Positions 60,013 to 64,000 of a stretch of DNA of 64,000 nucleotides are shown here, one piece after another. Origin of the DNA: Nannochloropsis salina CCMP1776 (taxonomy: Eukaryota; Sar; Eustigmatophyceae; Eustigmatales; Monodopsidaceae); contig SDOX01000010.1 of the NCBI GenBank assembly GCA_004565275.1, positions 567,446 to 631,445 of the forward strand. The letters run 5' to 3'. Positions within the stretch are counted from its first letter, which is position 1. Each line of letters opens with the position of its first letter. Under the pieces are notes generated by a model. It was not told where the DNA came from. It worked only from the letters and a program-made list of their open reading frames with translations, and made no database searches. Both the position numbers and the translations under genes were made by a program.

Positions 60013-60857
60013 TATGCTGGAAGTTTTTCTAGCGGCGATCCAGCCAACTCTTACCTCGATTCATATAAAAAGATAAGAAACAGTGATGGAGATCACCATG
60101 AAAAAGTATGCAATAATGTAATTGAAGACGTTGTATACCATAAACTTATCATACTCAGTCCTGTGGCTGATGAAAAATACATCAGCTCTCCTTCGCAACC
60201 AAGCATGCCATTACCCTTTCCCAATGAATATCGACCCCGATACGTCCCTCCTTGGCGTCGTCCTCCGAATCCAACGCCACGAGCGTGGAATTTCATAATA
60301 TTTGTTTTGGATCAGGGGGTCGCATGGCTTCATCCGTGCGCATAGAAAACGCGCTCTCGACTGCCGCTGTAGTTGCTACACAGGACTGCTGCTCAAGAAA
60401 AAGGTCTAGTGAATTTTCTAAAGACAATGCCCCTGGAAAAAGATAAAATGTACATGCATAACATTAAAAGTATCGAGTCACTAGCATCAAGGCAAGATTC
60501 CTTTGGGAGGGGCATGGCATGTATTATTTTGTGGCAGTCGCGGTAGGAGTGTATTCCACTGTCGGTGATGGGAACCATGTCAAGAAAAGGCATCGCAGCC
60601 AGCCAGCCCAATAGGCTGTTGCAGTTGCCGCAGCAACTGCTATATAAAGCTTAAATCGTTTTAAAGTTTCCCACTCTCTTCCTCGTGAAACTTTCATTTT
60701 GTTTGTATATGAAAATAAAAGAGGAACGATTCTTGTCGGCTGAGTGCATTATCTCCACCATGCATGTCTACGCATGATCATCCATCTCACCCACCGAGTC
60801 GACTATCTAATTGCCCCCCCCCCCTTCTCAGCTACAACCTTGTTTTTTTCCTTCAAG
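60013..60857. other. Interval between LRR and RimP-like genes
   Basis: An 845-base stretch. A plus-strand frame near 60150-60345 contains a Pro/Arg-rich segment (PRYVPPWRRPPNPTPRAW) that looks protein-like and might be a further exon of the LRR gene or a small gene of its own. I cannot anchor its splice sites. A poly-C run lies at 60817-60827 just ahead of the next gene. Confidence 0.4.
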
Positions 60858-62222
60858 ATGGTTGGCTGGAGCAATTGTCTTGCATTGACTTTAGGTCTGG
60901 CCTCGAGTGTACATGCCTTCGTACCAGCTGCGCATACAAAGGCCATATGCGGAAATCCTGTGCTGCACAAGGACTATGCAACGACCCCCCACCCGCACGT
61001 TTGCACGTGCCCCGCTTGTGCGCACTCTCCGGGCAATGTTGATGGGCTACAATCAACTCCAGGAGCGCGTAGAAGAGTTGAGGCATTGGTGCTCATGGCC
61101 CGGGGTAGACGGGGACGTGGAGGTGGGGGATGGCAGCGGCGCAGGAGGCAAGATGCTAATCCGGTTGAATTTGACAAGTATGGATTCCCTATCCCGCCCC
61201 AGAAGCCCGCAAAGGAATTGGAGGAGGAGCATCGTAAGTGGATGGAGTCAATAGAGCCTCCAGAAGGATTTCCAGAATTTGACGCGGCCAAAGAGGGATT
61301 CTCACCGGAGGAAATGGAAAATGATCCTTTGTTGGACCCGGCCGTTGCTGCTACGACGGCAGAGACCGGAGCGACGACCGTGATCGACGTGACAGCAAGC
61401 GAAGAGGGGGCGGGGCAGGAGAACGAGCCAGACTGGGACAACATTCCTGAGTACGGTGGTGAGTTTCTGGGCATGGACGACCCCCTCGATGCCCCGTGGC
61501 GGTTGCAAGCTGAGGAAGTGATTCGGGGGGCCGTGACCGAGGCCGGCTACCATACCTACGACGTGACGTGGCACCTACACCATGTGAATGTGGACATTAC
61601 CAGGCAGGACGGCGGCAACGTAGAAAGTGAGGGGGAGGGAGTGGCGGACGCAGGGTCTTTGTCCTCGGACGAGATAGTGGAGGTGACGCGTGCCGTTGAA
61701 GAGGCACTCTTGCCGCACGACAACCACCTGCGGGTCCTGCAGCGCTTTCACTTGTGCGTGGGCACGCCGGGAGCCAAGGACGTGCTGACCACCGAGAGAG
61801 AGTTTCAGGCATTTCGGGGCTACGAGGTCCAGGTGTCTGTCACGAACCCGATCAATGAGAGCCCCACACCCAACGTGCGCGTGGGCCGCTTGCTGGAGCG
61901 CAACCCCATGCACACGATTTTGAACGTCAAGGGGAAGAACGTGACGATCCCTACCGGGATGGTCGTAGAGGTGCGCCTGCCATCGGCCATGCACGAGGCG
62001 GACGACTTCGAGGTAATGGATGAGGGGTGGGCGAACCTGTTTGTGGACGGAAAGGTGCCGAGCACCGTGAACGTCGAGTATGAGATGCCGGGGCTGACGA
62101 CTCTGGGCAAGGGGGTGAAGATGGTGGAGCCCGAGTACTACGTGCCGCCCTCCCTCCCGGACGAGGACGGGGAGGAAGGGGAGGGAGAGGAGTACGTGGG
62201 TGTAGAGGAGGATGAGGCCTGA
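60858..62222 (+). CDS. Plastid-targeted RimP-like ribosome maturation factor
   Basis: RimP assists assembly of the bacterial-type 30S subunit. The ATG at 60858 gives 454 residues; the frame is open upstream but has no ATG ahead of it. Residues 1-24 are a signal peptide (NCLALTLGLASSVHA) followed by AFVPAA, the plastid Ala-Phe site. After a basic and then acidic linker, the RimP-like domain covers about 245-420: APWRLQAEEVIRGAVTEAGY, VDITRQDG, EIVEVTRAVEEALLPHD, FHLCVGTPGAKDVLTTEREF and GYEVQVSVTNP. The usual RimP S-S-P-G motif before the second domain reads G-T-P-G. The C-terminus is very acidic. The family call is good, the divergence large. Confidence 0.85.
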   Translation: MVGWSNCLALTLGLASSVHAFVPAAHTKAICGNPVLHKDYATTPHPHVCTCPACAHSPGNVDGLQSTPGARRRVEALVLMARGRRGRGGGGWQRRRRQDANPVEFDKYGFPIPPQKPAKELEEEHRKWMESIEPPEGFPEFDAAKEGFSPEEMENDPLLDPAVAATTAETGATTVIDVTASEEGAGQENEPDWDNIPEYGGEFLGMDDPLDAPWRLQAEEVIRGAVTEAGYHTYDVTWHLHHVNVDITRQDGGNVESEGEGVADAGSLSSDEIVEVTRAVEEALLPHDNHLRVLQRFHLCVGTPGAKDVLTTEREFQAFRGYEVQVSVTNPINESPTPNVRVGRLLERNPMHTILNVKGKNVTIPTGMVVEVRLPSAMHEADDFEVMDEGWANLFVDGKVPSTVNVEYEMPGLTTLGKGVKMVEPEYYVPPSLPDEDGEEGEGEEYVGVEEDEA

Positions 62223-62491: not shown

Positions 62492-63805
62492 CTAGGGAGA
62501 GGTAGGGGAGGGGGGGGCAGTTTCGACCAGCCCCATCTTTCCGCACAGGTCTTCGCGGAGCTGCCGGACTTCGGCGTCCGACAGACGACGCAGGCGAGCC
62601 CGGCCCCCTTTGTCGCGCGTCAACGAGGCCATCTCCAGATGGTCAGGGAAGGCGCAGGTCTCTCTCGAGGGGTCCGTGACTTGGGATCTCCCCGTCTGCT
62701 CGTGCCTGTGCTGCGGCCGAGTCTGGACGCGCGAGCTGGAAGAATCTTCCATGACGGAGTCACATATATGGATCGCCAAGCGTTGACAATCCTCTAAGGT
62801 CAATCCTGGGCGGTACCGGGACTCCAGGAGGGCCTCGGCGCGATCACCACGCTCTCCGATTGCCCGGGCGGACCAGCGGACGAAGAGTCCGGAGGGCCCC
62901 ATCTCGTACACCGTCCAAGGCGGGTAGGTCGAAGACGCTTCCTTCGTAGGTCTGCTTGTGCCTACGTCGGTCGACGACGCAGGATTGTCGCCCTCGTTCA
63001 TCTCATCTACAGGTGTCGGAGCCCTGCTGGCAGTCAGCGGCCCTGCGAACAAGAAACCCACCCCAAAATAGCGAGCTGGTAGGCCTTCTTTTTTAAGCTC
63101 CGCCTCTGCATCCCCAATCGGGTCTACCGACGGCTTCGGCCTGATTTCCTCGAAGAAAGAAGCGCCTTTCTTTTCTCCAAGCGGACCCTCGGGTGGTAGA
63201 CGGTAGTGAGCAGACGTCAAGACCTTGCTCAGGTCCATTAGCAAACCTGGAAGTCCTACTTCTTCGCCGTATACAAACCAATGCTGTTGTGAGAGTAGAC
63301 GGCCTCGTCGAACAACGTATCGCCCGTCTGGTACTAGGCCTGCCATCACGTACGCAATATGCTGGTCCATCTGACCGATTTTGGGTGTAGGGCCGACCAA
63401 TAGAGGAGATAGGTTACGACGTGACCCAACAAGGACAACCCCGTCTTTGGCTACGAGAGCCATGGCTAAACTTCCTTTATTAACGGCTTGCTGGGCGTGC
63501 GTGAGCTGTCGAATGAGGCCTTCAGGTGTATACGGGAAAGGATGATAGACTTCGACGAGGCGGCGCCCTCCGTTGTTTCCACTTTCAAGAGCAGCATCAA
63601 CTGCGCAAACGAAATTCAACAATAGGGCAACAATAGCCAAGAGGAGACATGGTGGGTTGGTATGCCGCAGCCGGCGGAGGAAGTGGGGCGATGGAATTGA
63701 CAAGGAGGGAGAGGGGGGAGGTTGTGCGTTTGGAGGGTCTACCGGCACGTCCGGCGCAATGCTTCGTTTTATTCTCAAGCAAGCCAGGATGTCGCCGCCC
63801 GTCAT
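62492..63805 (-). CDS. Secretory-targeted proteasome alpha-2 (PSMA2)-like protein
   Basis: A 437-residue protein from the ATG at 63805; the frame continues upstream without ATG. A hydrophobic segment at about 52-70 (CLLLAIVALLLNFVCAVDA) is preceded by Arg-rich residues and looks like a signal peptide or signal anchor, though 46 residues precede it. The proteasome alpha fold covers about 86-345: YTPEGLIRQLTHAQQAVNKG, for the usual Y-S-P-x-G-x-L-x-Q-x-E-Y-A; KDGVVLVGSRR; HIAYVMAGLVPDGRYVVRRG; YFGVGFLFAGPL; MGPSGLFVRWSARAIGERGD; and TLEDCQRLAIHI. The C-terminus (ARLRRLSDAEVRQL) resembles the F-R-R-L-x-x-x-E-V end of alpha-2. A low-complexity insert lies at about 265-300. The normal length is about 235. 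A cytosolic proteasome subunit would not have a membrane segment. Confidence 0.83.
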   Translation of the reverse strand: MTGGDILACLRIKRSIAPDVPVDPPNAQPPPSPSLSIPSPHFLRRLRHTNPPCLLLAIVALLLNFVCAVDAALESGNNGGRRLVEVYHPFPYTPEGLIRQLTHAQQAVNKGSLAMALVAKDGVVLVGSRRNLSPLLVGPTPKIGQMDQHIAYVMAGLVPDGRYVVRRGRLLSQQHWFVYGEEVGLPGLLMDLSKVLTSAHYRLPPEGPLGEKKGASFFEEIRPKPSVDPIGDAEAELKKEGLPARYFGVGFLFAGPLTASRAPTPVDEMNEGDNPASSTDVGTSRPTKEASSTYPPWTVYEMGPSGLFVRWSARAIGERGDRAEALLESRYRPGLTLEDCQRLAIHICDSVMEDSSSSRVQTRPQHRHEQTGRSQVTDPSRETCAFPDHLEMASLTRDKGGRARLRRLSDAEVRQLREDLCGKMGLVETAPPSPTSP

Positions 63806-64000
63806 ACTAGTACCCTGTTTTGACGGTGACGTGACTGGAATTAGAGTTCCATTTTGGTACCTGAGGGAGAGGCGGGGATGGCGTGCCCAAGAGAGTGGGG
63901 ATCGCCGACTCCGCCGCGGAGCCGGGGAAAAATGATGAGCGAGCAAAGTAAAACACTTGCTTCCGCCTTTTCTGCGTTTTTCTAGCCTGTTTTTGTAGTT
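63806..64000. other. Right edge, upstream of the proteasome-like gene
   Basis: The reading frame of the proteasome-like gene stays open to 63946 but without an ATG. A short upstream exon or simply the 5' leader may lie here. Nothing else is seen. Confidence 0.4.

Follow-up and report, generated by a model that had tools for sequence, protein, structure and literature searches.

Why should an alga that encodes an ordinary complement of 20S proteasome subunits also carry a strongly divergent alpha-type subunit whose fold is preceded by a hydrophobic segment resembling a signal peptide? The question is raised by a gene on the minus strand, at positions 62492..63805, of a 64 000-nucleotide stretch of Nannochloropsis salina CCMP1776 DNA (hereafter the window). 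An earlier note on this DNA had described the gene as an alpha-2 homologue and had considered for its product either a place in a separate proteasome of the periplastid compartment, i.e. what is left of the symbiont's cytosol around the complex plastid, or a solitary existence as an alpha-like protein with a new role. In the light of the evidence described in the following, the gene, a nuclear one, probably specifies an alpha subunit belonging to a second and divergent 20S proteasome that acts in the periplastid compartment.

The open reading frame, with the coordinates and the length of 437 residues originally given, was confirmed, and its product matches the Pfam Proteasome family (PF00227) in two stretches with E=5.3e-22 and 78.8 bits, the cut-off being 22.4. 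The predicted model shows a full alpha-type fold at approximately residues 88-424 (62534..63544, minus strand), comprising the N-terminal H0 helix (residues 94-110), the sandwich and the last helix (residues 410-423), while the loop at residues 256-296 (62918..63040, minus strand), an insertion with respect to ordinary alpha subunits, is modelled mostly with low confidence. Lys142 (63380..63382, minus strand), a residue invariant in 35 out of 35 aligned rows, is kept and is equivalent to K66, the activator-pocket lysine of the Thermoplasma alpha subunit. The N-terminal gate is, as previously noticed, strongly altered: of the gate residues Y8-D9-P17-Y26 the sole survivor is P17, and the gene is not among the 13 genomic places that match PF10584 (Proteasome_A_N) at E<=10, even when three weak matches (E 0.83 to 2.1) are counted. 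This outcome lowers any claim of a normal gate; the assignment to the alpha type stands on fold and sequence.

Which alpha class the gene belongs to is answered with less certainty. A phmmer search of the PDB returned 214 distinct sequences at E<=0.01 and, among the best 60 of them, the top one is a chain named just ‘Proteasome subunit alpha’, alpha-5 chains dominate next and alpha-2 chains are found further down. Sequence search, spliced scoring and the tree in which the gene was added alone (95/99, with an end branch of 2.2) all favour alpha-5; in the tree with all the divergent paralogues described below, the gene joins no class firmly, the nearest by path being alpha-3. The p-AU values for the six other alpha classes range from 0.17 to 0.31, and none of them is formally rejected. 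Thus, alpha-5 appears to be the best class for the gene, a placement that stops short of proof. The alpha-2 identity proposed earlier (p-AU 0.171) was preferred by none of the phmmer search, the spliced scoring and the trees. A separate conserved alpha-2 gene exists in the genome, as does a distinct conserved alpha-5 gene.

The hydrophobic segment itself, 16-19 residues long (residues 51-69, PPCLLLAIVALLLNFVCAV; 63599..63655, minus strand), is signal-peptide-like and lies inside a modelled helix (residues 51-74). When the N-terminal region was shuffled 1000 times, its mean hydropathy of 3.00 over 12 residues was attained in 6 cases. The hydrophobic stretch reported ahead of the domain is indeed there, and no Met is found between it and the fold. 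By eye, on the basis of the -3/-1 rule, cleavage after residue 71 (VDA↓A) or after residue 68 (FVCA↓V) is equally possible; the Ala that had been placed after the cleavage site is plausible at the first of the two sites and shares its claim with the Val of the second. The first 50 residues ahead of the segment (63656..63805, minus strand) are of low complexity and are the part of the frame with the least certain coding status. In codon usage, a clear in-frame signal of coding is missing over residues 1-90 and present from residue 91 on, and the 49-52 residues that precede the hydrophobic core would make an unusually long n-region for a signal peptide.

Whether splicing could remove the segment was assessed with splice matrices trained on the 31 introns that HslV and 12 ordinary subunits provide (a modelled intron of L023 was dropped, and beta-4 and L036 were left out), for which the training minimum scores were 3.6 for acceptors and 4.4 for donors. 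The four AG sites between segment and fold reach a top score of 0.0 as opposed to the training minimum of 3.6, and the acceptors scoring at least 2 (63520, 63491 and 63451) fall within the fold. An intron removing the segment, the exon structure that the earlier note had regarded as fatal to its proposal, was accordingly discarded: among two-exon models whose donor and acceptor both score within the training range, none skips the segment yet keeps the fold. When weak sites are permitted, 17 frame-compatible two-exon models skip it, and the best of these joins a donor at 64271 to an acceptor scoring 0.0, which would give the protein a short beginning that lacks the segment. The acceptor at 63861, however, scores 14.0, so that an intron from the same donor (score 11.1, beyond the window) would sit in the leader: the 3′ part of this likely 5′-leader intron occupies 63861..64000 (minus strand), and the exon restarts at 63860. 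In this exon, ahead of the start codon, a short upstream reading frame (Met-Glu-Leu-stop; 63841-63852, minus strand) is found in a start context that is favourable by eye. On the whole, the window gene carries a candidate signal peptide: its hydrophobicity, the missing later Met and the missing training-range intron speak for it, the long n-region and the weak coding signal against it.

The meaning of such a gene depends on its companions, and the genome (26.5 Mb in 103 contigs) was therefore searched for others. Matches to PF00227 in 35 exons were grouped by reading into 22 loci and PF10584 added one more (L036); comparison with human and E. coli reference sequences, spliced models and trees divided the resulting 23 loci into 14 ordinary 20S subunits, HslV and eight divergent extras. 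The ordinary set (L009-L013, L015, L018, L019, L021, L023-L025, L027 and L036) consists of alpha-1 to alpha-6, beta-1 to beta-7 and, as alpha-7, L036 (C78:850000-855500), a divergent gene with short exons and introns rich in CCTCCCTCC, the model of which covers the N-terminal half. L036 was also considered as a ninth extra and rejected because it groups with human alpha-7 (87/95) and is without a hydrophobic leader; no better alpha-7 was present among the genome matches to a yeast PRE10 query. The HslV gene (L020; C70:365000-370000) places a bacterial-type peptidase gene alongside both 20S sets.

At the gene level, a second 20S set is present. The eight extras comprise five alpha-type genes (the window gene, L014, L017, L029 and L030) and three beta-type genes (L016, L022 and L028), which share fold and subunit classes with the cytosolic 20S of the same alga, the ordinary subunits having shorter branches: end branches in the trees are 0.4 to 3.4 for the extras versus up to approximately 0.9 for the other rows. 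The trees place L017 with alpha-6 (98/98), L029 with alpha-4 (95/90), L016 with beta-5 (100/99), L028 with beta-6 (95/96) and, more weakly, L022 with beta-1 (83/79), while L014 and L030, both of the alpha type, are placed in no particular class; among the resolved extras no class occurs twice. The catalytic residues Thr1, Asp17 and Lys33 are retained in L016 and, with one residue inserted, in L022, and three of the five extra alpha subunits have lost most of the gate residues. Divergent copies of beta-2 or beta-7 were not among the genome search results at E<=10, and the classes represented by extras come to 8 of 14. Nor were matching extra 19S ATPases or a second UMP1 seen in the genome, where UMP1 has one place and Rpt-type OB domains have five, below the six ordinary Rpts expected, so that no expansion is apparent among these places.

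This inventory also bears on the notion that the window gene is a decayed remnant, or that its product is an alpha-like protein standing alone and serving some new, non-proteolytic function. Its long branch, lost gate residues and extra loops, along with the incomplete representation of subunit classes, would agree with such a fate. However, a frame open over its whole length, a complete modelled fold and the conserved pocket lysine are found together with seven further extra paralogues in the same genome, two of which carry catalytic residues; the gene is thus not solitary, and we regard decay or a private new function as very improbable.

If the extras were sent to the periplastid compartment, signals comparable to that of the window gene would be expected in them. 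A hydrophobic stretch is indeed found upstream of the fold in all eight (best 12-residue mean hydropathy 1.81-3.15 in continuous frames), values that are to be read against a control of 89 open reading frames of at least 200 residues from the window and the loci examined, those of the extras included, of which 30% reach 1.8 and 10% reach 2.2 within their 60 N-terminal residues. When the N-terminal regions are shuffled, the observed hydropathy is attained in 1 to 372 of 1000 cases; the number stays below 10 only for L022, L029 and the window gene, and the maximum of 372 belongs to L014. Moreover, hydrophobic in-frame leaders also occur in ordinary alpha-1 (2.43) and beta-4 (2.22), and in HslV (1.85), each with a later Met. 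The extras may be nothing else than fast-evolving host paralogues that supply alternative 20S subunits to cytosol or nucleus, their hydrophobic stretches being leader, intron or chance, an explanation that we consider unlikely. The weak coding signal at the start of the window gene, paralleled in the N-terminal region of L017, is in keeping with it, and so are the later Mets that follow the hydrophobic stretch in L028 and L029 and the positions of these two genes in the tree, where L029 adjoins the alpha-4 (94/83) and L028 the beta-6 (89/73) of the alga itself.

The distribution of start codons speaks for targeting and against a cytosolic role of host paralogues. In six of the eight extras (the window gene, L014, L016, L017, L022 and L030) the continuous frame holds no Met between the hydrophobic stretch and the fold, whereas this holds for 0/11 of the ordinary subunits that have their start in the same exon (Fisher p 0.001; the starts of beta-1, beta-3 and beta-6 are unresolved and HslV was left out). 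Upstream Mets in L014 and L022 extend the n-region by approximately 17-20 residues. Other alpha and beta subunits with signal-like starts, for which a search had been recommended, are thus available in the genome. The splice test gives a more varied picture: training-range two-exon models that skip the stretch number 0 for the window gene and for L014, which again disfavours the host-paralogue explanation, and 11 for L016, 2 for L017, 3 for L022 and 9 for L030. When the same test was applied to 150 random codons in ordinary exons, with gaps of 37 to 151 bases, 15, 27, 31, 38, 61 and 66 of them could be skipped, so that the four of six extras with a skippable stretch compare with approximately 1.6 of six expected, an excess that counts in favour of the host-paralogue explanation. 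Therefore, the targeting claim is firmest for the window gene and less so for L016, L017, L022 and L030; periplastid targeting of the extras as a group is supported by these predicted features, but not proven.

A signal peptide by itself does not fix the compartment, and the extras could also be secretory proteins bound for the ER lumen, the cell surface or the plastid stroma. The usual stromal signature is ...A↓F, as in the ...ASA↓F and ...STA↓F of two antenna genes of this genome, whereas the +1 residue of most extras is, by eye, not F, W, Y or L. We know of no precedent for a proteasome in the ER lumen. In the case of L016 and L028, L or W could be found at +1, which fits the stroma, both residues being allowed there according to PMC12136025. 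With these observations on its two sides, a destination elsewhere in the secretory route or the plastid seems improbable, and the periplastid compartment is retained as the probable one. One antenna protein of the alga, it may be added, differs from VCPI-2 of PDB entry 8zo9 at 18 of 223 positions, and the VCP name is one that points to Nannochloropsis or Microchloropsis.

Periplastid proteasomes are not without precedent. With reference to Moog 2011, Stork 2012 and Lau 2016, PMC5070193 attributes to plastid-bearing heterokonts a periplastid compartment with 20S core subunits only, nucleus-encoded and equipped with signal peptides, and suggests that CDC48 may pass substrates to this 20S, while PMC5756292, where it deals with diatoms, describes periplastid 20S proteasomes without a cap. 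This kind of particle is thus already known, and the statement of PMC5070193, being a general one, could be taken to cover the present alga; the open-licence literature searched yielded no paper describing such an extra 20S set for Nannochloropsis, and PMC7302151, in its section on a proteome, lists proteasome subunits without a periplastid assignment. The published systems have host-encoded core subunits with signal peptides, lack a 19S cap and work beside the symbiont-derived import machinery, SELMA; the extras resemble them in being host-encoded, in their mostly signal-like starts, in that no extra 19S ATPases were seen and in the candidate SELMA parts described below. The extras differ in belonging to a Nannochloropsis-type eustigmatophyte and in consisting of eight very divergent subunits. 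The cryptophyte nucleomorph proteasome likewise pertains to a remnant symbiont cytosol, but, as reported in PMC5070193, it is nucleomorph-encoded and complete in most of the species named there, whereas the genes described here are nuclear and the set is reduced.

A periplastid destination presupposes a route across the membranes, and it is on this point that the published record seems to be at variance with the genome. According to the 2019 N. oceanica genome paper (PMC6610115), N. oceanica and N. gaditana lack major components of SELMA, and its authors suggest that import either proceeds by another system or is not required; a symbiont CDC48 was not found there, a symbiont-type derlin was found, with a signal peptide in N. 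oceanica only, and the main text never uses the word proteasome. In N. salina the DER1 profile identifies four genomic places, three of them above the cut-off. One divergent derlin (L051; C14:529500-534500), in which a signal-like start and then a long transit-like region come ahead of the domain, is a candidate sDer1, and the VRGG stretch ahead of its derlin domain recurs in L047. The CDC48_N profile finds L047 above the cut-off and, weakly (0.013), L048, by eye an intron-rich ordinary CDC48. L047 (C6:897500-903500) is a second CDC48, extended at its N-terminus by a lysine-rich region and a candidate symbiont CDC48, and its C-terminus, ...EEDLY, is one residue short of the exact form usual for an Hb-Y-X motif. 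This C-terminal motif is discussed in a passage of PMC5070193. A signal exon of L047 is tentative: the frame-compatible model that contains it depends on a donor whose score of 3.4 falls short of the minimum seen in training (4.4), and totals 16.7, compared with 17.5 for the model without signal. Taken together, the signal-like derlin and the second CDC48 suggest that parts of SELMA are present, contrary to the 2019 claim for Nannochloropsis.

With these components, a path for the window protein and its companions may be outlined, in which the assembly, the activity and the origin of the second 20S are what we infer from the gene content. The extra subunits would enter the ER co-translationally by means of their hydrophobic signals and would be carried across the second membrane by SELMA, and, cleavage leaving no Phe in the +1 position, they would not be imported onward to the stroma. 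The window protein and the other seven extras would then form a barrel in which the beta-1- and beta-5-like subunits cut peptides. Since no extra 19S ATPases were seen, substrates would have to come unfolded or by way of the symbiont-type CDC48 and, given the loss of most gate residues in three of five extra alpha subunits, the particle may be poorly gated. Extending the proposal to a working, stripped-down periplastid 20S of Nannochloropsis-type algae, made of approximately five alpha and three beta types, with gating largely lost, active sites of the beta-1 and beta-5 types only, no 19S and the symbiont CDC48 as likely feeder, leads to a picture that is possible, although we hesitate to call it likely. 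If true, it would overturn the published view of SELMA loss in these algae, against which the signal-like derlin, the second CDC48 and the eight extra 20S subunits argue, and the matter is testable in a cultivable alga. It is because the second set runs contrary to a published claim and looks reduced that it is of interest: if only eight subunit types assemble, they would constitute a natural experiment on the limits of eukaryotic 20S reduction, and would also inform on what feeds a 20S devoid of its 19S cap.

Outside the algal genome, viral contigs contained no relatives of the window gene. An alpha-type subunit (L058) 49% identical to the alpha-4 of this alga is encoded on a contig that bears the bacterial title Endozoicomonas sp. 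ISHI1, for which contamination or transfer is possible. Finally, the plus-strand neighbour of the window gene (60774-62222) is an open reading frame of 482 residues with, by eye, a signal-like start (...LASSVHA↓FVPAAH); its C-terminal match to the RimP SH3 domain is weak (E=0.03, under the cut-off), and it is possibly a plastid ribosome maturation factor.
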